From a virus, in the IMG/VR virus record IMGVR_UViG_3300032213_001491, positions 1 through 23,826 of that record: a stretch of 23,826 nt of DNA. One strand, given 5' to 3'. Below, in pieces: positions 9,316-20,321 of this stretch. The translations under genes were made by a program, and so were the position numbers. Position 1 is the stretch's first letter. The number at the start of each line of letters is the position of its first letter. Under the pieces are notes generated by a model. It saw nothing but the letters and a program-made list of their open reading frames with translations. It searched no databases and was not told the DNA's origin.

Positions 9316-9687
9316 TTAACCTAAATTAATTAATTTGTATTTCGTTGAATATAATAACGTAGCTATATTATCTATATCATTTTGCATCCAACTATGTTGT
9401 AACTTCTCATTTTTTCTAGCAGCTTCTAAATATGTACATAGTTTAGTAAAATAATTAATGATATTATCTTTTTCTGCATTATTATCCACTCCCTTTACAT
9501 CCTTATACTCTATTAATCCATACATACCTTGATACGATTCAACTAATCCATCTATTAAAGGTATTATTTCTGTGTAATATCCTTCTAATGCCAAGTGTAA
9601 TGCTAATGCCCCAGTTCCTCTAACTCTAGTATGAAACACATGAGCCTGAGTTCTGCTGTGAAAAAACACCGAAGCCAATTCTTCCAT
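9316..9687 (-). CDS. Dps/ferritin-like helical-bundle protein
   Basis: This 123-residue all-helical protein has the metal-ligand spacing of Dps mini-ferritins. Visible residues are H19, H31, E35, D46 and E50. In E. coli Dps the ferroxidase ligands are H51, H63, D67, D78 and E82, so every interval (12, 4, 11 and 4) is the same, with Glu for Asp at one site. The surrounding segments (FHTRVRGTG, LHLALEGYY, IDGLVESYQG) also fit Dps helices A and B, and two further helices follow at about 71-91 and 100-116. The protein is shorter than Dps (167 residues) and lacks the Lys-rich N-terminal tail and most of the BC helix. By family, the site would oxidise Fe(II) at a dimer interface. It lies between the methyltransferase and fibre genes, after a TATTTATA box. 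Whether it binds iron or only keeps the fold is unknown. Confidence 0.55.
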   Translation of the reverse strand: MEELASVFFHSRTQAHVFHTRVRGTGALALHLALEGYYTEIIPLIDGLVESYQGMYGLIEYKDVKGVDNNAEKDNIINYFTKLCTYLEAARKNEKLQHSWMQNDIDNIATLLYSTKYKLINLG

Positions 9688-10387: not shown

Positions 10388-10412
10388 AAAAAAAGGGGTG
10401 ATTTCTCACCCC
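10388..10412 (-). terminator. Intrinsic terminator after gp23
   Basis: In coding orientation the sequence is GGGGTGA, loop GAAA, TCACCCC, then seven T. The stem is a perfect seven base pairs and the loop is a stable GNRA tetraloop. It lies 43 bases after the stop of the capsid gene and is the only classical Rho-independent terminator I find in the window. It should end the strongly expressed head transcript or set its 3' end. Confidence 0.88.
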
Positions 10413-10454
10413 TCTCTTTTATTATGTAAGTTAACTTAACCTAATCAATTCAGA

Positions 10455-12092
10455 TTAGATAGAAGATAAATCTTTAACATAGATTCTACCGTAGAACTCA
10501 GGTCTTACGATTTTCTTAGCGTATCTAGTCATAACACCTCTACGTGGAGTAAAGTTGTCTGGGTCGTACACTAAAGGAGTCATAATCAATGGTACATATG
10601 GTGCGTAAACCGCTCCAGTCTCCAAGAAGTTTGAACCTTTAAATCCTAACAAGATTTGGTTAGAAGTCATGTAAGGGTTTTTGTAAACTGTGTATCTGTT
10701 AGAGATTGAACCTACTACAGAAACACCAGCTGCAAATTGTAATGCATCTTTCTCAGCATTCACGTGGAATCCTGGGATTGATTCTAAAATAGTACATACA
10801 TCTGGAGATGCAACGATAAAGTTAGCTCCACCTCTCATTGTTAATTGATGTATCTTGTTAGATACTTTGTTCAATTTAACACCTAAAGTCTGGAACCATG
10901 TAGCTTTTTGGTATGCTAATGCAGAAGAACCTGCAGTCCAAGTACCAGCTGCTGGGTTGTATTCTTCACCCACAGTTGCTGACCAATAATCAACTGTCAA
11001 TGCGTTAACTTGTAACATATCTAAGATTTCTAAGTCGATTTCTAAAGAGATGTATTCAGATAACATTGAAGTTAATTCTGCTTCAGCATCAATTGAGTGG
11101 TAAGCATTTAAATCTTGTGCCAACTCAGGAGTCCATACTGCTTTCAACTTACGAGTCTTAGCAACGATTGATTCGCTCTTTAATTCTAAGTCGATTTCAG
11201 GGATGTTTAAGTTAGTACCACTTAATTGGTTTGCACCATTAGCGATTGGGTTTTGGTCTTCAAAGTCACCTCTTTGGTAAGAGATTGGTTGAGTTTGGAA
11301 CTTAACAGAAGATAAGTTTACAGAAGTAGAAGCCGAAATAGGGTTCTTAACTTTTGCAAATAACACTAAGTTATTTCCAGCATAATCATGCTTATAGAAA
11401 GCAGGATATTCAACATCGATGTTAGTAGCATCTACTAAATCAATTAACTTAACAGCTTCAACATCAACGTTAGTTAATGCAGATGCAGCGATTGTTAATT
11501 TCTTAAAGTATGCAGATGTTGCAGCACTTGTGTTGAAAGATGCAGAGTAGTTAGCATCGAATCCGAAATCAGCCCAAGATGCAGAAGCAATTGTAGTTGC
11601 TACTGTAGCTGCAGATGAAGTTGGAGCCAATGAATAACCATAAGCACCTTCGCCATATAAACCACCAGCAGCAGTTTCAGTTCTACCGAACTTAGAACCA
11701 GTGCCATATAAAGAATCTAAAGCAGTTTTACCACCTTTAGTTGAACCATATTTGAAGTCCATAAAGAAGATAAGACCAGAAGGTAAGTTCATTGGTTGAA
11801 CTGAAACGAATTCCTTCGCTGCAATTTCACCAAAGATTCTTCTTACCAATGGTAAAGCAACACCACTCCACTCTTCAGAACCTTGTCCGTTAGCGTTAGT
11901 TTGTGATGATTCTTGTAATAATTGTTGTGCTTGGTTTTCCAAAAGCACTGCCATTGAATGTTGGTCTCTATCTTTAAGGCCTTCTAACAAACCAGTCTTA
12001 GACCATTTTGTTTTCAATCCTCTTGTTTGCTCCAACATAACGGTCTGAGGGTTTTTCGCCTCTAATAATGATTTAACATTAAAGTTTGCCAT
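10455..12092 (-). CDS. 23: Major capsid protein gp23
   Basis: This is the major head protein, 545 residues (T4 gp23 has 521), forming the hexamers of the shell with an HK97-like fold. Residues 59-61 are LQE followed by SSQTNANGQG, matching the gp21 cleavage consensus [IL]-x-E and lying very near the T4 cleavage point (after residue 65), so the mature subunit should begin at S62. The segment ALPLVRRIFGEIAAKEFVSVQPM and the downstream FFMDFKYGS are hallmark gp23 strings. Later parts include KLKAVWTPELAQDL, RGGANFIVASPDV and the C-terminal VRPEFYGRIYVKDLSSI. It is preceded by scaffold gp22 across a 29-base, nearly pure A/T leader with no Shine-Dalgarno, and followed by a strong terminator. Identification is firm. 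Confidence 0.95.
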   Translation of the reverse strand: MANFNVKSLLEAKNPQTVMLEQTRGLKTKWSKTGLLEGLKDRDQHSMAVLLENQAQQLLQESSQTNANGQGSEEWSGVALPLVRRIFGEIAAKEFVSVQPMNLPSGLIFFMDFKYGSTKGGKTALDSLYGTGSKFGRTETAAGGLYGEGAYGYSLAPTSSAATVATTIASASWADFGFDANYSASFNTSAATSAYFKKLTIAASALTNVDVEAVKLIDLVDATNIDVEYPAFYKHDYAGNNLVLFAKVKNPISASTSVNLSSVKFQTQPISYQRGDFEDQNPIANGANQLSGTNLNIPEIDLELKSESIVAKTRKLKAVWTPELAQDLNAYHSIDAEAELTSMLSEYISLEIDLEILDMLQVNALTVDYWSATVGEEYNPAAGTWTAGSSALAYQKATWFQTLGVKLNKVSNKIHQLTMRGGANFIVASPDVCTILESIPGFHVNAEKDALQFAAGVSVVGSISNRYTVYKNPYMTSNQILLGFKGSNFLETGAVYAPYVPLIMTPLVYDPDNFTPRRGVMTRYAKKIVRPEFYGRIYVKDLSSI

Positions 12093-12121: not shown

Positions 12122-13213
12122 TTACTTGATAATACCAGCTAATTTTTTGAATCTATCTGATGCAGAATTATCTTCAGCGATAATTTGCTTTGGTGCAGTA
12201 GAAGCCGCCGGCTTTGATGCATAACTTTCTGTAATTTTAGCAGTTACTTTCTTAGTTGCTCCGTTTCCAAATTTGAAACTTTCAGCAATTGTTGAGAATA
12301 CTAACTTAACTTCTCTTACATTTTTAGTTCTATCTAATGTTTCAACAACTTTAGATTTTTGTTCGTTTGTTAAATTGAATGAACGGAACAATTTGTTCAC
12401 ATACAATAATTTAGCATTCAAAAGGTTTACTTCGTTGATTGTACCTTTTAAAGATTTGATTACGCTGATAGCTTCACCTAATTCAGACTGAACTGATTTT
12501 AATTCTGCTTTCAATGCATCTAATTCTTCTTCAGATTCTTCACCTTCAGTAGCAACAGGTGCTTCTTCTGTAGGCTCATCTCCGTATCCCATTTCTCTTA
12601 GAATTTCATCTAAGTCAATTTCATCTTCTTCAGCTACTGGCTCTTCAGCTGCAGGCTCTTCAGTTGGTTCAGCTACAGGAGCTGCTTCCTCTTCTTCACC
12701 TTCAGTTGTTGCGTATGATTCTTCATCATCAGCTGCTGCTTCCAATTCTTTGATAATTTCATCGATTTCAGAGTCAACGTCATCCATTGTCTCTTCTTCG
12801 TTGTAATTCATACCTGTTCCAGGAGTTGCTCCCTCGACATCTTCTACTTCCTCGCCTTCTGTGATTCCTGCTACTTTCTCAGCATTCTCGTCTTCTGAAC
12901 CTACTGCTGCAGAGATTTTATCTACATCTGCTGCTGCTAATTCATCTGATTCCGCTGCTGAACTGAAAGCTTTAGCTGCTGGCATTTTAGTACCATCACC
13001 ACCGCCGATTTCTGAAGATACATCATTCTCCTGAGTCAATTCTACTTCTTCTTCACTTTCATCGCCTTCTAATTCCTCTGATAATTTTTTAGAAAGCATA
13101 GATTGTAATTTAGGAGTAAAAGCCTCTTCAAGAGCGATTTTTGCGTTTGCTAATGCTGTTTCACGAACCGCTTTAGCATCTGCGATTGCTTCTTTCAAAA
13201 GTTTACTATTCAT
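12122..13213 (-). CDS. 22: Prohead core scaffolding protein gp22
   Basis: This 363-residue protein is the scaffold around which the capsid assembles and which gp21 later digests. The N-terminal 50 residues form an amphipathic helix (MNSKLLKEAIADAKAVRETA). Residues about 50-230 are strongly acidic and rich in Glu, Asp, Ala and Thr (e.g. EGEEVEDVEGATPG). Then follow a coiled coil (LDALKAELKSVQSELGEAIS) and the family's conserved C-terminal block, LLNAKLLYVNKLFRSFNLT and TKNVREVKLVFSTIAESF. Several possible [IL]-x-E cleavage sites are present, such as LKE near residue 8 and LSE near residue 45. The acidic insert makes it longer than T4 gp22 (269 residues). It has its own structured leader of 126 bases and lies directly before gp23, as in T4. 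Confidence 0.86.
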   Translation of the reverse strand: MNSKLLKEAIADAKAVRETALANAKIALEEAFTPKLQSMLSKKLSEELEGDESEEEVELTQENDVSSEIGGGDGTKMPAAKAFSSAAESDELAAADVDKISAAVGSEDENAEKVAGITEGEEVEDVEGATPGTGMNYNEEETMDDVDSEIDEIIKELEAAADDEESYATTEGEEEEAAPVAEPTEEPAAEEPVAEEDEIDLDEILREMGYGDEPTEEAPVATEGEESEEELDALKAELKSVQSELGEAISVIKSLKGTINEVNLLNAKLLYVNKLFRSFNLTNEQKSKVVETLDRTKNVREVKLVFSTIAESFKFGNGATKKVTAKITESYASKPAASTAPKQIIAEDNSASDRFKKLAGIIK

Positions 13214-13297: not shown

Positions 13298-13339
13298 ATT
13301 CGAATCAATTACATATAAGTATATAACAATTATAGAAAA

Positions 13340-13555
13340 CTAAAGAAAATTAAAATTATTTTTTCTTTTTGCTTTTTCTTTTTGTAATCTTTTCTTTACA
13401 GAAGGTTTCAAAAATTCCTTCCTATCACGCAATTCCTGCGTTATTTTTAGCTTAAAAACTTTGTTTTTGTAATCTTTCAGAGCCTTTTCTACATTACGAT
13501 TGCTCTCTTCTTTGGATGAACCTTGTTTAACTTTTATTATAATTCGTGCTGGCAT
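13340..13555 (-). CDS. rpsU: Phage-encoded ribosomal protein bS21
   Basis: This 71-residue, Lys/Arg-rich protein is a homologue of small-subunit ribosomal protein bS21, which sits beside the 3' end of 16S rRNA near the anti-Shine-Dalgarno. The core LRDRKEFLKPSVKKR at residues 42-56 matches, as I remember it, the Bacteroidota bS21 core LRARQAFIKPSVKKR almost exactly. The N-terminus (IIIKVKQGSSKEESNRNVEK) keeps the family strand-then-helix layout with a few extra residues. After KKR the sequence is LQKEKAKRKNNFNFL and lacks the Tyr I expect in host proteins. It lies one base after the gp21 stop (TAATATG) and upstream of gp22, thus inside the head operon and probably expressed late. It could replace host bS21 on ribosomes and favour phage messages. 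The family call is strong; the effect is inferred. Confidence 0.82.
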   Translation of the reverse strand: MPARIIIKVKQGSSKEESNRNVEKALKDYKNKVFKLKITQELRDRKEFLKPSVKKRLQKEKAKRKNNFNFL

Positions 13556-13556
13556 A

Positions 13557-14162
13557 TTATGCTAACTCTTCTATAATTTCTCTAATTAAATGTTGTGTTC
13601 TGCACCATTCTCCACATACATCTGTTCCGTATGTTTCGTTAATTTGTTTCTTAGAAGATACTGATTCATTTAAGTTTTCCATAAATGCACCCTGAGTTGA
13701 TGGGTTTGATACAAAATCCCACCCAATCAATTCAAAATCTTCAGCCACCATTACTTTATTATCTCCAATGGATTGAACTGAGCCCATACCTCTACTTGAG
13801 ATACCTAAACGGATTCCCGCTTTTAATAATTCTTTTAATATGTTACCAGATGGAGTTGGTAATATCTCTACGACACCTACCACATCATCTCCTTTCCAAT
13901 AGCATTCTCTTATGTTATGGGATACATTCTTCAAACTAACTACAGATGATTCTGGATGGTCTAATTCACCCAATGCTCTTTTCTCTGTAATAAGTTGTTG
14001 ATATTTCTTAACCTCTCTTTCTAATATTTCTTTTGGGTACACTCTACCATTCTGGTTTTGTGCATCCGCTCTTTGTAATACACCTTTAACCAAAACTACT
14101 CCGTTTTCGTCTTCGTTAATCTTTCCCTCAAATAATTTTGTTTCTATTAAAAGTGATTTCAT
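13557..14162 (-). CDS. 21: Prohead core protease gp21
   Basis: This 201-residue serine protease of the herpesvirus/T4 prohead type cleaves the scaffold and the capsid propeptide. Visible features: GRVYPKEILEREV at 39-51, LGELDHPES at 64-72 with the catalytic His at 69, VVGVVEILPTPSG near 94-106, and GISSRGMGSV at 120-129 with the nucleophile Ser at 122 or 123. The length is close to T4 gp21 (212). The C-terminus has two family-type cleavage sites, LNE at 164-166 and INE at 174-176, then a helix LIREIIEELA; these could be self-cleavage sites that shut the enzyme down. A Cys pair (CGEWC) near 183-187 is unusual. The gene starts one base after the EF-hand core protein and ends one base before bS21. 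Confidence 0.88.
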   Translation of the reverse strand: MKSLLIETKLFEGKINEDENGVVLVKGVLQRADAQNQNGRVYPKEILEREVKKYQQLITEKRALGELDHPESSVVSLKNVSHNIRECYWKGDDVVGVVEILPTPSGNILKELLKAGIRLGISSRGMGSVQSIGDNKVMVAEDFELIGWDFVSNPSTQGAFMENLNESVSSKKQINETYGTDVCGEWCRTQHLIREIIEELA

Positions 14163-14163
14163 T

Positions 14164-15318
14164 TTACTTATTTAGTTTAACTTTACCTTTACCTTCCATT
14201 ATACCAACTGCAATATCACCTACTACAAAATCAGGTTTAGTTGCATATCTCTTATTAACGATTGCAACTTTGTTATTTGGAGTTGGTTGAACTATGTAGA
14301 TTGCTAATGGTTCGGTAGCAAAAGTATATTTTATACCTAATTTCTTTAACTCACTACCTACTCCCATAAATGAAGATGCTGCTTCTACCGCTGATTTGAT
14401 TTTATCCATATCACCAGAAGAAACTCCTTCGTTTATTTTTTTATTCTCACCCAATTGTTTCCCAAACTCATCCCAAATCTGTAATGCTCTTTTTTTAACA
14501 CCTTCTTTAGAATCATTTGCACCAACTGGAATCATTTTTTGAAGTTTACCACGAACTACAAATCCACCATACATTGTATCACCATCAGTAGTTTTAGTTA
14601 CTACTATTTGAATACCTTCTTCATTTTTAAGTTTATTTACAACTTTAATAGTTGGTTTTGCACCTTCGTTTACTGATTCACCCAATGTCTTTAATTGTTT
14701 TTGTAATGGTTTAAACTTATCTAAAAATTGGTCTAAAGTTTTGATTTTACCTGCTTCAGCATCTACTCTTAACTTTTCTATTTTTGCCAAGATGTCCGAT
14801 TCTTTAGATTCGTTTACTTTTGTAATATTATACATTTTACCAGCACCACTCTTAACTAAAGTTTCACCTTCTTTACTTAATATCTTAGTCTGAGGTAATT
14901 CCTCTTCTCCTTCAGTTTTTGCACCGGCTCTAAGTTTAGATAAATCATCACCATCAACTTTTCCGTTTTTGTTTAAATCTATCTTTTGTTGTGCTGCTGA
15001 TAATTCCGCTTCTGTTTTTGCACCCCCTCTTAATTTAGATAAGTCATCTCCGTCAACTTTTCCGTTTTTATTTAAATCTATTTTTTGTTGCTTAGCGGTT
15101 AACTCATCTTCTTTTAATTGAGTTAATCTTTCACTTACACCTTTCCAAGTATCTTCTACTTTATTGAAAAATGCTTTCTTCTCTTCATCTGATTTGAATT
15201 CATCTGGCGAAGATACACCATGCTTCTTTAGCATAGCCTGAAAGAATGATTGATAATCCTTTTCTTCTTGTAATACTTCTCCAACGATGCTTCTTAATTG
15301 CTCTCTAGTTATTTTCAT
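14164..15318 (-). CDS. Prohead core-type protein with duplicated EF-hand/dockerin-like loops
   Basis: This 384-residue protein of uncertain role lies between the portal and the prohead protease. The N-terminus MKITREQLRSIVGEVLQEEK is a short amphipathic helix ending in LQE, a gp21-type cleavage motif, which suggests a capsid-targeting peptide. Residues 26-60 (LKKHGVSSPDEFKSDEEKKA) look like a small helical domain seen in other T4-like phage proteins. Residues 75-140 hold two 33-residue repeats, each with a calcium loop DLNKNGKVDGDD (ligand positions 1, 3, 5, 9 and 12 all acidic or Asn), spaced like a dockerin. [IV]NE motifs occur at 168-170, 216-218 and 295-297. The C-terminal 85 residues look globular. 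A possible AGGA ribosome binding site lies 6 bases before the ATG, a rarity in this window. It is probably an internal head or core protein. Confidence 0.6.
   Translation of the reverse strand: MKITREQLRSIVGEVLQEEKDYQSFFQAMLKKHGVSSPDEFKSDEEKKAFFNKVEDTWKGVSERLTQLKEDELTAKQQKIDLNKNGKVDGDDLSKLRGGAKTEAELSAAQQKIDLNKNGKVDGDDLSKLRAGAKTEGEEELPQTKILSKEGETLVKSGAGKMYNITKVNESKESDILAKIEKLRVDAEAGKIKTLDQFLDKFKPLQKQLKTLGESVNEGAKPTIKVVNKLKNEEGIQIVVTKTTDGDTMYGGFVVRGKLQKMIPVGANDSKEGVKKRALQIWDEFGKQLGENKKINEGVSSGDMDKIKSAVEAASSFMGVGSELKKLGIKYTFATEPLAIYIVQPTPNNKVAIVNKRYATKPDFVVGDIAVGIMEGKGKVKLNK
14899..15096 (-). repeat. Tandem 99-base repeat encoding two Ca-binding-type loops
   Basis: Units lie at 14998-15096 and 14899-14997, each 33 codons. 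The loop and the following helix (KIDLNKNGKVDGDDLSKLR) are identical in protein, while the DNA differs at several third positions. The duplication is therefore old enough to have drifted at silent sites and appears to be conserved by selection on the protein. Confidence 0.85.
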
Positions 15319-15331
15319 AGGGATTCCTAAT

Positions 15332-15787
15332 TTATTTTCTTAAGGTGGTTACGTTTTTACCAATGTTAGATAACCTTTCCTTTATTCTATAAATATGGTG
15401 ATTAGTTCTTTTCCAAAAGTTTTCACCTTTTAGAGAGTTTTCTTTTTTGATTTTACCATACCATTCTAAGAATTTTTCGATTTCATCAATCTTTCTACGG
15501 ATTTCCCTAACCCCCAACCCAATCTTTTGGTTTGGTGTCATAGTTTGGTCTAATCTTAATTTTTGAAATCTGTTTTCGTTAACTGCTGAATATCCAGTTA
15601 ATCCCGCCATTCTTTTTACATACCCCGCTTTGTGAGTACCATTATTAGAAAATGCACGAGGAGTATCGAATCCTGCTACATCTCCTGTAACAGTTACCTC
15701 TTTTTTCAATTTATCTTCTTCTTCCTTTTCTATTTCAGAAAGTATTTCTCTGATACTATTTTTTAACGCTTCTAGTTGAGTTGACAT
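15332..15787 (-). CDS. Small conserved head-cluster protein
   Basis: This 151-residue basic protein is of unknown function, though its place between portal and protease is where T4 keeps the prohead core genes 67 and 68. The N-terminal helix LEALKNSIREILSEIEKEEE contains LSE, a possible gp21 cleavage site, and resembles the N-terminus of the next protein, so it may be a capsid-targeting segment. A central stretch VTGDVAGFDTPRAFSNNG is followed by KMTPNQ-like sequence and a C-terminal helical region rich in Lys and Trp (FWKRTNHHIYRIKERLSNIG). 'G[FY]DTP.AFS' is a string I recall from cyanophage T4-like proteins of unknown role. It overlaps the end of the upstream gene by 32 bases. I infer an internal core protein with moderate confidence. 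Confidence 0.55.
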   Translation of the reverse strand: MSTQLEALKNSIREILSEIEKEEEDKLKKEVTVTGDVAGFDTPRAFSNNGTHKAGYVKRMAGLTGYSAVNENRFQKLRLDQTMTPNQKIGLGVREIRRKIDEIEKFLEWYGKIKKENSLKGENFWKRTNHHIYRIKERLSNIGKNVTTLRK

Positions 15788-16712: not shown

Positions 16713-18632
16713 TTACACATCTGGTAAGATATTTTTATCATCTAATAGTGAACCCGTATCATCACTTAATCCGTTTATATCCTCGCTTATAATCTTTTTA
16801 CCCGCTTTTCTAGCGTTATTTGATTTAATTTTATTTCGTATCGCATCTCTTAATTTCTTATCTTTATCGGAAATACTCTTAAGTTTTTCACCGATTCTTT
16901 TATGTCGAGTCTCTCTTCCAAAATTACGAGTTATATCACCTTTACCCAACGGGTCTCTTCCAAATGCATTATCATCTGTACCATTATCTCCTGTCATTTG
17001 TGGTCTACCTCCTAATTTACCATTTTCTGCACTAGCATCTGCTGCTTCTTGTGTAGGTTGTTCATCTGCAGGTTCTGCCATCATACCCGTTTCAGGTTGT
17101 TCTCCTTCAGCCGGTTGCTCACCTTCTGCTGGTTGTTCTCCACCTGGTTGTTGAGGTTCTTCTTCGTATGGGTCTACTCCTTCTTGTTCAATCTTATTTA
17201 ATCGGTTTAAATCGAATGTATCATAAACTACATTTGTTCTTTCTTCATCTATTTCTTCAGTAGAAAGTTTAAATATGTTTTGATAAATCCAATCATTAGA
17301 TAACAACTTTAATGCTTTCATATCGGTTGCCAATCTAACTTTCTCAGCCCATAAGTTAATTTTCTCTTGCTCATAGATTGTAGATGGATTAGTTAATTCT
17401 AATTTAAAATCAACCGCATCCATACCCTCAACTCCTTGTGCAATTAAGTGTGCAATAGCTATCTGAGTTAATTCAGATACTACTACTCTTTGTATTCTTT
17501 CGATTGTTCTAGCGAAACGGATATCCTCCGCCGCTAATGTAGCTTTACCATTGATATCCTCTTCATATCCTAAGAAAGCCTTTGGAACTTTAAGTGCCGC
17601 AAATAATTTAGCCTTTAAATAATCAATATCTTCTATCGCAGTATATTGTAATCCTCCTAACGTATCAATTGATGTACCACTATCCCCGCCCCTTACAGGC
17701 ATAAAGAAATCCTCTGTGATGTTCATCATATTATACTTAAGATTATAATCTCCTGTTTTTTGGTCTTGAAAAGGAGTTTTCTTAATCTTATTGATAATCT
17801 TTTGCATATAGTTATCAACCTCTTGTGGAGGGATACTACCAATATCAATTTTAAATATTCTCTTTTCAGGAGCTCTCATAATACGATGTATCATCATCGC
17901 ATCTTCCATCAATGTAATTTGTTTCCACAATCTTCTTGCATTTTCCAACATTGATTTACCATAAGGTAGATAGTTGGTATCTGAATACAAACGGAAGTGA
18001 GCCATTTCAAAGTTATCATACTCATGCTTACCAAATTTATCTGGGTCAACGGTGAATTTAATACCTTGTTCTTTTCTATTAATTCTCTGAGGGTCATTTA
18101 ATCCTTCAGTTCGTGTTACATAGTAAACCGATTGAGGGTGTACGTTTATAACACCTTCTCCTTCAGCAATTTCTAATGTAATAAAACAATCTCCATACTT
18201 ACATAGGTTTCTAACCCACGGCCAAAGATTGAATTCAATATTCATTGTATCATAGAATAAACTCTCTAATACCTCTTTAACTTGTTGGTTTTCTGTTTTA
18301 ATAGTAAGAACATCTCCGTATTCATTTTTTGTAGTTGATTCATCCGCATAGATATCTAATGCCGATGAAAGTATCGGGTCATTATCCATTGCATCATAAT
18401 CTAAGAATAACTCTCTACGAATTACTTGATATGATAATTGTGTCTGATATACATCTTGTGTATATCCAGTTTGCAATCTATAAAATCTATCCTTTAAAGA
18501 TTTAAGGTTTGTTACTTGCTGACTGTTTTCAGTATCTACTACCCTAGTCTTATTACCTTCTTTTTTAACAACTACTCCGGTAGAAAATACCTTTCGTAAT
18601 CTATCAAAAAAAGAATTACTTTGTTCTGCCAT
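16713..18632 (-). CDS. 20: Portal vertex protein gp20
   Basis: This is the portal subunit, which forms the dodecameric ring through which DNA enters and on which the prohead starts. It has 639 residues (T4 gp20 has 524). Family blocks are visible: YDAMDNDPILSSALDIYADE near residues 78-97, LCKYGDCFITLE, a membrane-distal RLYSDTNYLPYGKSMLENAR, MHRIMRAPEKRIFKID, and the conserved GGLQYTAIEDIDYLKAKLFA followed by LKVPKAFLGYEEDINGKATL. The core ends near residue 480. An extra C-terminal tail of about 150 residues follows: a Pro/Glu/Gln repeat (493-516), a Gly/Asp-rich linker and a basic helix (KLRDAIRNKIKSNNARKAGK). This tail probably faces the core or the packaged DNA. The gene follows the terminase gene after a gap of about 100 bases. 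Confidence 0.95.
   Translation of the reverse strand: MAEQSNSFFDRLRKVFSTGVVVKKEGNKTRVVDTENSQQVTNLKSLKDRFYRLQTGYTQDVYQTQLSYQVIRRELFLDYDAMDNDPILSSALDIYADESTTKNEYGDVLTIKTENQQVKEVLESLFYDTMNIEFNLWPWVRNLCKYGDCFITLEIAEGEGVINVHPQSVYYVTRTEGLNDPQRINRKEQGIKFTVDPDKFGKHEYDNFEMAHFRLYSDTNYLPYGKSMLENARRLWKQITLMEDAMMIHRIMRAPEKRIFKIDIGSIPPQEVDNYMQKIINKIKKTPFQDQKTGDYNLKYNMMNITEDFFMPVRGGDSGTSIDTLGGLQYTAIEDIDYLKAKLFAALKVPKAFLGYEEDINGKATLAAEDIRFARTIERIQRVVVSELTQIAIAHLIAQGVEGMDAVDFKLELTNPSTIYEQEKINLWAEKVRLATDMKALKLLSNDWIYQNIFKLSTEEIDEERTNVVYDTFDLNRLNKIEQEGVDPYEEEPQQPGGEQPAEGEQPAEGEQPETGMMAEPADEQPTQEAADASAENGKLGGRPQMTGDNGTDDNAFGRDPLGKGDITRNFGRETRHKRIGEKLKSISDKDKKLRDAIRNKIKSNNARKAGKKIISEDINGLSDDTGSLLDDKNILPDV
17085..17156 (-). 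repeat. Low-complexity Pro/Glu/Gln repeat in the portal tail
   Basis: Residues 493-516 of the portal protein contain three in-frame copies of a GEQPAE-like hexapeptide encoded by 18-base units. On the opposite strand this creates an artefactual Cys/Ser-rich open frame. The repeat is probably a flexible linker between the portal core and its basic C-terminal helix. Confidence 0.75.
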
Positions 18633-18726: not shown

Positions 18727-18736
18727 TATAAATATT
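18727..18736 (-). promoter_or_regulatory. Candidate late promoter box between gp17 and gp20
   Basis: AATATTTATA in coding orientation overlaps the TAA stop of the terminase gene and lies about 95 bases before the portal ATG. The remaining 95 bases are A/T-rich with alternating TATATA tracts and no recognisable terminator. A promoter for the portal transcript is possible; the long distance makes this the weakest of the boxes. Confidence 0.32.
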
Positions 18737-20321
18737 AAAATAACCATCTTACATCTTCTTTTTCCATACCTAAATCCATTTCATACGGATTTCTTTGGAA
18801 AGATTGATGATTATATACTCCATCATCCACTCCAGTTGATGAAAAAGAGTTTAATCCTTGCTTAACTAAATCCATTCTTTCTTGTCTTAAACGTAGTGCA
18901 GTATCCCTCACCCATAACCCAATTGCCAAACACATCGTTAAGTCATCATTATATCCTCTCATAGCTTCCGCTCTGTTTGTGTACCATATAAAGGTAAATA
19001 ACTCATCTATTGTTCGCATCGATTGGATTACCACCGATTTTTCTCTAAAGTATTCATCCAATTTAGATATCATAAGAGGACGGGTTTTAGCCGATGTTGT
19101 AAATCCTGCTACCTGTCTTCTATCCTCTGCTCCGTATTTGTTAGTATATTGTTTTTCTACATCAATATATTTGTAATCAGATGTTTGATAATATACATTG
19201 TTATACCCCCTATCTATTACTTGTTGTAATGCCGCCCACCCAATATTTGCATTCTCCACAACTAATAGTGCATTATTATAATCCGTTGCAACTGAAACTA
19301 AGAAGTTACCAAATTCCTTTGTATCTATCTTACCTCTATATTCAGCAACCTGCACATTATTAACTACATCCATAACGTGGAAAGCGGAGTAATCCGATGC
19401 ATCACCTCTGGCAACGTCGGCTACAACCATATAAGATTTATTGTAATCAGGGTATTCCCATTTCCAATAATTTCCATCCCATCCACCCTTTTCAACCGGG
19501 TCTTTAACAAATGTTTCCTTATACCACATTAGGATTTCAGGAGATATTACCGTATCACCGGAAGATATAAAGTCACAATCACACTCTTGTGCCGCCAACT
19601 TCTCTCCCAATACTTTTGTTTGTTCATCTCTCCATCTCTGGTCTCTTTCAGGGTGAACAGTCCAATGTAGATGGATTGGGTTGAACTCATTTGTTCCTTC
19701 CTCCGAACCTACCCATTGTTTGTGAAACCAATTACCCACACCATTCGGTGTAGAAAGTGCTATACAACTACCACCCGTTGATAGGGCCGGAGTTGCAGAT
19801 GCCCAAATCTCATTAATATCCGGTACGAAAGCTGCCTCATCAACAACCAATAGTGATAAGGCTTCCGAACGACCTGCATCAGGTGAAGATGGAATAGCCT
19901 TTACTTGTGAACCATTTACTAATCGTAATGAGAGTTTGTTATCTTCCTGTGTTGCTACCTTTAACCAACTCGGTAAGTTATCATACATAACCCTTACCTT
20001 AGTTACTAAGTTTTTAGCAACTTCCTGCTTAATCGCAATAACAAGTACGTTATAATCTTGATTGAATATCATCTTCCACAGAGAATAACCAGCGGTTAAT
20101 GTGGAGATACCTGTTTGACGGGATTTAAGAACTAAGTTATACCGATGTTCTTTAAATTGTAATAAAGTTTTTTCCTGATATGGAAATAACTCAAACCTTA
20201 ACTTACCTTTTGTAGGATGTTGAATCTTACAATACTTACGCATGAAATATACGGGGTCTGCCGCACATTTAACATACTCTTGTCTAATTACATCCTTTAA
20301 AGATAATTGTTTATCTTGCAT
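18735..20321 (-). CDS. 17: Terminase large subunit gp17
   Basis: This is the DNA-packaging motor: an N-terminal ATPase drives translocation and a C-terminal nuclease cuts the concatemer. Visible ATPase motifs are a deviant Walker A, KSRQTGIST at residues 66-74, with the Lys at the start instead of before the Ser/Thr, as in many terminases. Walker B is LLVVDEAAF (D161, E162), and the coupling motif is ALSTPNG at 188-194. The nuclease has the RNase-H-like acidic set: D302 in VVADVARGD, E356 in LLVVENANIG and D460 in YNDDLTMCLA. The protein has 528 residues (T4 gp17 has 610), mainly through a shorter N-terminus. Its ATG shares a base with the preceding gene's stop (TAATG). Confidence 0.95.
   Translation of the reverse strand: MQDKQLSLKDVIRQEYVKCAADPVYFMRKYCKIQHPTKGKLRFELFPYQEKTLLQFKEHRYNLVLKSRQTGISTLTAGYSLWKMIFNQDYNVLVIAIKQEVAKNLVTKVRVMYDNLPSWLKVATQEDNKLSLRLVNGSQVKAIPSSPDAGRSEALSLLVVDEAAFVPDINEIWASATPALSTGGSCIALSTPNGVGNWFHKQWVGSEEGTNEFNPIHLHWTVHPERDQRWRDEQTKVLGEKLAAQECDCDFISSGDTVISPEILMWYKETFVKDPVEKGGWDGNYWKWEYPDYNKSYMVVADVARGDASDYSAFHVMDVVNNVQVAEYRGKIDTKEFGNFLVSVATDYNNALLVVENANIGWAALQQVIDRGYNNVYYQTSDYKYIDVEKQYTNKYGAEDRRQVAGFTTSAKTRPLMISKLDEYFREKSVVIQSMRTIDELFTFIWYTNRAEAMRGYNDDLTMCLAIGLWVRDTALRLRQERMDLVKQGLNSFSSTGVDDGVYNHQSFQRNPYEMDLGMEKEDVRWLF

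Follow-up and report, generated by a model that had tools for sequence, protein, structure and literature searches.

The window, i.e., the whole stretch of DNA analysed here, is a virus fragment record of 23,826 bases (IMG/VR record IMGVR_UViG_3300032213_001491) with a single gene for ribosomal protein bS21. The features considered are listed in Table 1. Read 5' to 3', the minus strand carries the genes for the large terminase subunit (TerL), the portal protein, two unknown proteins, an EF-hand/dockerin-like protein, the prohead protease, bS21, a scaffold-like protein and gp23. The bS21 open reading frame starts with ATG and encodes 71 residues; the protease stop codon TAA is followed by a single T and then by the bS21 ATG, which corresponds to a gap of one base. 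The original prediction of a 71-residue bS21 homologue between the prohead protease and the scaffold gene, one base away from the former, holds on the minus strand, the scaffold gene being identified by position; its product yielded no significant family match in Pfam or PHROG searches. The EF-hand/dockerin-like gene encodes repeated DxNxNGxxDxxD-like motifs, its Pfam EF-hand and dockerin matches lie below the cut-offs, and its identity among relatives ranges from 52 to 98%, the neighbouring genes being far more alike. At 9316-9687, within the structural gene set, a family of starvation-inducible transcriptional regulators was matched (phrog_858, 4e-14), and a strong terminator-like hairpin, scored on both strands, lies past the capsid gene at 10388-10419.

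Table 1. Features of the window, in the reading direction of the minus strand
Feature	Position	Strand	Basis or remark
ATA[CT]TTAT, nine sites	first bases 21881, 18735, 16688, 15396, 13322, 9720, 9304, 3271, 2256	minus	motif scan
Large terminase subunit (TerL)	18735..20321	minus	Pfam, PHROG, TerL relatives
Portal protein gp20	16713..18632	minus	Pfam
Late-promoter-like ATATTTAT	15389..15396	minus	78 nt before EF-hand gene, within end of upstream gene
EF-hand/dockerin-like repeat gene, hypervariable, first of predicted late unit	14164..15318	minus	Pfam matches below cut-off
Prohead core protease (Peptidase_S77, 1.2e-29; T4-type)	13557..14162	minus	Pfam; gap sequence to bS21
bS21 gene, 71 aa	13340..13555	minus	Pfam profile, 7jil alignment, pN/pS
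Late-promoter-like ATACTTAT	13315..13322	minus	between bS21 and scaffold
Structured leader of scaffold gene, three helices	13226..13311	minus	covariation
Scaffold-like gene	12122..13213	minus	named by position only
Major capsid protein gp23	10455..12092	minus	Pfam

Regarding the identity of the bS21 protein, the profile search proposed with the prediction gave a match of residues 18-66 to Pfam Ribosomal_S21 (PF01165) with E=1.6e-10 and 40.9 bits, above the curated cut-off of 27, and PHROG 'ribosomal protein S21' was matched with E=5e-5. The score against NCBIfam TIGR00030 (cellular 30S ribosomal protein S21, equivalog) was 28.5 bits, 0.45 bits short of the curated cut-off of 28.95, and the protein is not assigned to this equivalog. 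Among solved structures, the one yielding the best match was 7jil, the F. johnsoniae ribosome (E=1.1e-6; alignment gap-free over residues 19-63), with 5myj (E=1.3e-4), taken to be a Lactococcus ribosome, and 4ybb (E=0.79), presumably the E. coli ribosome, at lower ranks. The reading frame is not a chance one, because all 11 close IMG/VR relatives share the frame, the gap and the gene order and pN/pS is 0.092 (66 pairs, 12 sequences); it is a real gene under purifying selection. An AlphaFold model reached a mean pLDDT of 86.2 and a pTM of 0.55. Foldseek found no significant match with this model (best E 3.2), which lends no support to bS21 and, the protein being modelled as extended and helical, is little evidence against it. 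With megablast, the whole window matched no phage; tblastn of the bS21 protein against phages yielded a single record (E 4e-3), and the bS21 of Microcystis phage Mel-JY01, not listed there, was noticed solely through its terminase match.

The core pattern RKE[FY][LVI]KPSV was scanned over one genome per species (84,980 species), and the best 80 of the 116 relatives found were all labelled Bacteroidota or Chlorobi. In a bS21 tree of 116 rows and 63 columns, which is weakly resolved with many open forks and excludes the long-branched Mel-JY01 row, the window protein falls among 45 rows that are all from phages (100/98); this set joins three Bacteroidota cell rows (95/80), five cell rows of other phyla being separate (100/97). 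A single clade of the sequences that share the window's gene place (the slot) was neither supported nor rejected on this tree (p-AU 0.25). From the 7jil match, the pattern scan and the tree, the core can be classed as of Bacteroidota type, as had been proposed, and the tree suggested as a check groups the protein with phage and Bacteroidota bS21, away from other phyla.

The closest cultured relatives were Flavobacterium phage immuto (56.5%) and Mel-JY01 (54.3%) for TerL, and Mel-JY01 (64% over 82%) and then immuto (50% over 97%) for the protease; for the capsid, the closest relatives were an uncultured phage, Mel-JY01 and immuto. Searches of the phage collection turned up no cultured phage of the window's own clade. 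With gene starts taken as the first ATG of open reading frames of at least 100 aa, not as annotated, the leaders of the window and of the relatives G001 (L175-L183, 164.5 kb) and G002 lack SD sequences and are A-rich at -3, -6, -12 and -13, like those of Bacteroidota cells and immuto; G003 leaders are likewise without SD. The SD core was present in 4% of 159 G001 genes, 5% of 408 cell genes, 2% of 153 immuto genes, 11% of 19 window genes (two genes), 11% of 27 G002 genes and 29% of 195 Mel-JY01 genes. The bS21 core had been expected to give a host clue, which fits these leaders and the place of immuto among the closest cultured relatives; a Bacteroidota host is graded only as likely because the relative Mel-JY01 was recorded from a cyanobacterium.

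Close bS21 proteins (87-97%) were found on 11 IMG/VR contigs at the same location as in the window, one of which (L004) stops short of the scaffold. Regarding the remoter contigs, bS21 lies on the head-gene strand in seven (L012, L017-L019, L022-L024) and on the opposite strand between protease and portal, like in Chen 2022 (PMC9723584), in six (L013-L016, L020, L021). A protease-based survey covered the best 80 of 546 matches, a set from which the known members L006, L010 and L011 are absent. Within it, bS21 was found downstream in 19 of 19 contigs with a protease identity of at least 76%, and in none of the 61 contigs at 75% or below, 31 of which show a scaffold gene without a preceding bS21 and 30 no scaffold gene downstream. 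In 16 of the 19 contigs with bS21, either a single base separates the protease stop from the bS21 start or the two genes share one base; the gap is longer in L253-L255. Four bS21-less loci that were inspected have two or three larger genes between protease and scaffold, and in immuto, the record of which gave no bS21 match, an unrelated protein of 75 aa takes the slot. In a protease tree with eight bS21-less outgroup rows, one change accounts for the presence of bS21. Within the set surveyed, the same-strand place just behind the protease is fixed in the clade.

On its coding strand the window has nine sites of the motif ATA[CT]TTAT, all of them 25-109 nt ahead of a gene start and three within the end of the preceding gene; the opposite strand has one site. 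It is read as a putative late promoter element because it stands upstream of head and tail genes. The site 78 nt ahead of the EF-hand gene was present in 11 of 11 relatives, and none was found within 130 nt upstream of the protease in five relatives checked. In G001, where the intergenic share is 8.8% of the sequence, 21 of the 36 sites on the coding strand fall between genes, vs 1 of 10 on the opposite one (binomial p 1e-13 for the coding-strand enrichment), and the same bias was observed in immuto (20/43 vs 2/20) and Mel-JY01 (21/53 vs 5/44). The signal is one of place and strand bias, not of abundance: the G001 totals (36 and 10 per strand) do not exceed shuffles (49), and sites are also present far from the head genes of G001. 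A sigma-70 scan showed no excess (43 found vs 45.4 expected).

The pattern TTTCGTAT[CA]TTT resembles TAnnTTTG, the -7 element of Bacteroidota; between 62 and 163 kb of G001 it occurs at 14 sites, every one of them on the coding strand (shuffles 0.17), and one of these precedes an open reading frame of 91 aa that presumably resembles GroES. The proposal that such host-type promoters are confined to non-structural regions was dropped, two of four immuto sites lying in the head region (128.5 and 130.5 kb); a looser TTG-TAnnTTTG pattern was scattered.

With sites before the EF-hand gene and between bS21 and scaffold, and none within 130 nt before the protease in the relatives checked, a unit is predicted that comprises the EF-hand gene, the protease and, at its end, bS21, separate from scaffold and capsid. 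Since a promoter-like element and a conserved leader intervene, bS21 probably does not share a transcription unit with the latter two. The view that it lies inside the prohead operon is thus retained for the predicted unit with the protease and probably not for scaffold and capsid; this prediction agrees with Chen 2022 (PMC9723584), in which the head-gene region with bS21 is reported not to be a single operon. The probable late expression put forward at the same time is backed at the sequence level by the late-promoter-like elements, as a prediction. Directly after the bS21 stop and ahead of the scaffold leader, a GC-rich hairpin with a T run, resembling an intrinsic terminator, was seen in L253 and L254, both of which carry Tyr at position 54 (see below).

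Regarding the predicted leader of the scaffold gene, RNAalifold with 15 sequences yielded 19 pairs, seven of them with compensatory double changes. Among 12 distinct leaders 99.6% of cells pair, the covariation score was reached by 0 of 500 shuffles, and sliding the partners abolishes it; when six leaders were folded singly, they surpassed shuffles only mildly (z -1.4 to -3.3). With 31 sequences fitted to the alignment-built model, a fitting that favours the structure, 15 of the 19 modelled pairs show double changes, as do 13 of 16 pairs in RNAalifold's own structure. The model matched the coding strand in 28 of the 61 bS21-less loci at E<=1 (best 0.0005, many weak), with one extra match on the opposite strand, and all 19 matches examined end 21-23 nt upstream of the scaffold ATG. 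A wider model also matched L012 (6e-7) and Mel-JY01 (0.0066), with L019 at 0.94 and no match in the Chen-type loci scanned; one copy was found in G001 and none in immuto. ATA[CT]TTAT precedes 32 of 32 scaffold leaders checked, at a distance of 11 nt in 13 of them and of 39-46 nt in the other 19. Rfam gave no match for the window at the gathering threshold; at E<=5 it gave one miRNA-family match on the opposite strand (18.4 bits vs a gathering score of 119) for the window and none for L245. A role of this structured RNA as a control element of bS21 was ruled out, as the leader precedes the scaffold in bS21-less relatives too. By its distribution it belongs with the scaffold gene, not with bS21, and one might guess at an effect on the stability or translation of scaffold mRNA. 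By eye, a similar hairpin pair is visible before the scaffold gene of immuto.

Position 54 (F. johnsoniae numbering) was located by counting 14 residues from the K of KPSV, in agreement with the 7jil alignment, in which Arg64 of the window protein corresponds to Tyr54. This tyrosine is reported to stack on A1534 and to aid hiding of the anti-SD (PMC9976891). Among the best 80 of 116 pattern matches, all 79 readable cell copies are aromatic at this position (76 Tyr, 3 His), a count limited to matches of RKE[FY][LVI]KPSV that leaves bS21 proteins outside the pattern uncounted. Two of these copies, labelled Chlorobi/Chlorobiota, carry Tyr, contrary to the statement on Chlorobia in PMC9976891; the labels may be wrong, as one of the two, L089, groups as identical with a Bacteroidales-labelled row. 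In the 23 distinct phages of the slot clade (the window, L001-L011, L244, L245 and L247-L255), the residue is Arg in 15, Lys in four, His in one and Tyr in three. In the 92-row viral set, from which the window is absent, the residue is Tyr in 53 rows, Arg in 17, His in 15, Phe in five, Lys in one and unreadable in one. Near-identical contigs are included in the residue counts. When tested for membership in the Bacteroidia-type anti-SD-hiding bS21 (aromatic at 54), the window protein falls outside with its Arg. On the protease tree the Tyr54 forms lie outside the Arg/Lys/His set (96/96), which has a longer N-terminal loop, and two changes are enough.

Phage-encoded bS21 has already been reported (Mizuno 2019, PMC6375957). 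As described in Chen 2022 (PMC9723584), phage bS21 lies beside head genes with metatranscriptomic evidence of late expression, Bacteroidetes-phage bS21 is transcribed late with core structural genes, and the prohead protease is at most 10 genes from bS21 in 310 of 900 published bS21 phages; the place in the head gene set, at first considered unusual, is therefore on record. Clades a-e of that report and the window are alike in a Bacteroidetes-type protein encoded near TerL, portal, prohead protease and capsid, and in late expression, which is reported for the former and predicted for the latter. They differ in that bS21 is on the strand opposite to the head genes in the former and shares their strand, one base past the protease stop, in the window, and that residue 54 is aromatic in all 61 phage proteins reported there and Arg in the window. 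No report of a Bacteroidota-phage bS21 without an aromatic residue at this position was found in the open-licence PMC literature searched. The RpsU gene of Mel-JY01 (PP395634.1) also lies between the prohead protease and the scaffold region, on the same strand, and is accompanied by the leader match; unlike the window, Mel-JY01 has an extra gene between protease and bS21 and SD-using leaders, and its more distant bS21 has Lys at 54. The bS21 of Pelagibacter phage HTVC008M, also phage-encoded and reported to be of alphaproteobacterial origin, a host lineage different from that of the window, enters 70S ribosomes in E. coli (PMC6375957). Phage bS21, its head-gene place and its late timing are thus known; what differs here is the same strand with the one-base gap and the lost aromatic residue.

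The window bS21 is somewhat more probably than otherwise a late-made replacement for host bS21 in 30S subunits that biases initiation to phage late mRNAs. In outline, this T4-like phage, likely to infect Bacteroidota, carries a genuine bS21 gene, which would be read late as the final gene of the unit with the EF-hand gene and the protease, and translated in coupling with the latter over the one-base gap. The product would displace the exchangeable host protein in 30S subunits and keep initiation on, or bias it toward, the SD-less, A-rich phage late mRNAs during mass production of virion proteins. This replacement is argued for by the PF01165 match, the purifying selection, the place fixed in 19 of 19 contigs, the promoter-like element in 11 of 11 relatives, the SD-less leaders and the tree, together with the published late transcription (PMC9723584) and the entry of pelagiphage bS21 into E. 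coli 70S ribosomes (PMC6375957). Against it stand the about 5% of normal in vitro translation reported for E. coli ribosomes with pelagiphage bS21 (PMC6375957), the relatives that manage without a detected bS21, the loss of the anti-SD-hiding residue, the TIGR00030 shortfall, the Foldseek result and the abundance of ATA[CT]TTAT in G001, no higher than in shuffles.

The main rival is supply without selectivity, in which phage bS21 replenishes a loosely bound protein once host synthesis drops, so that 30S subunits stay active with no choice among mRNAs; this is possible and rather doubtful. According to a published description, bS21 binds loosely and can be exchanged (PMC6375957), and window-clade leaders resemble Bacteroidota cell leaders, with no phage-specific signal seen that a selective ribosome might use. 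In many Flavobacteriales an extended SD is reported to autoregulate host rpsU, as in F. johnsoniae (PMC9976891). Anti-SD pairing of -8 kcal/mol or better was reached by 11 of 80 cell rpsU leaders and by no leader in the 92-row viral bS21 set; phage bS21 genes, that of the window included, thus lack this extended SD, and phage supply would escape the host control. The altered N-terminal loop and residue 54 within the lineage, unneeded for plain supply, speak for more than replenishment.

In a further and unlikely reading, Arg or Lys in place of Tyr54 would end the stacking on A1534, the 16S 3' tail would leave its pocket and host initiation preferences would shift. The aromatic residue is lost in 19 of 23 slot-clade phages and kept in the readable cell copies, and the F. 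johnsoniae Y54A mutant is reported to show increased SD-dependent translation (PMC9976891). On the other side, the leaders of the window, G001, G002 and G003 lack SD, so phage mRNAs would gain nothing via SD pairing; Chlorobia bS21 is reported to lack Tyr54 though most Chlorobia mRNAs are SD-less (PMC9976891), so that a non-aromatic bS21 need not imply SD use; and Phe68 and Phe70, four and six positions beyond Arg64 in the same predicted helix (residues 51-70), might substitute for the lost aromatic. The idea that Arg54 serves SD-bearing phage mRNAs is unsupported in the window clade, and such mRNAs do not explain the change, because the leaders stay SD-less; a second SD test by slot group agrees (SD-core fractions 0.00-0.14, with just 3 to 23 genes per group). 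In three remoter Arg54 phages (G004-G006, L190-L194) the SD core was observed in 32-45% of 20-25 genes each, and their basic residue may just match another host type, perhaps outside Bacteroidia. There is also a small chance that the clade variants without the anti-SD-hiding residue would make a late second type of ribosome from host 30S subunits, with the 16S 3' tail freed or re-routed and initiation shifted without phage SDs. Very improbable is a non-ribosomal role as a small basic protein recruited to the head, e.g., an internal protein that is packaged and delivered along with the DNA: coupling to the prohead protease, the adjoining scaffold-like gene, the unrelated protein in the immuto slot and the possibility of packaging raised in Chen 2022 (PMC9723584) would suit it, but the conserved bS21 core is retained and in six related loci bS21 lies on the opposite strand between protease and portal.

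Regarding supply versus re-tuning of the ribosome, the lineage offers a natural comparison, in which a near-identical gene place is combined with Tyr, His, Lys or Arg at position 54 and which includes relatives where no bS21 was found at the slot. The sequences of the slot clade are natural variants that could be introduced into the published F. johnsoniae bS21-depletion strain.
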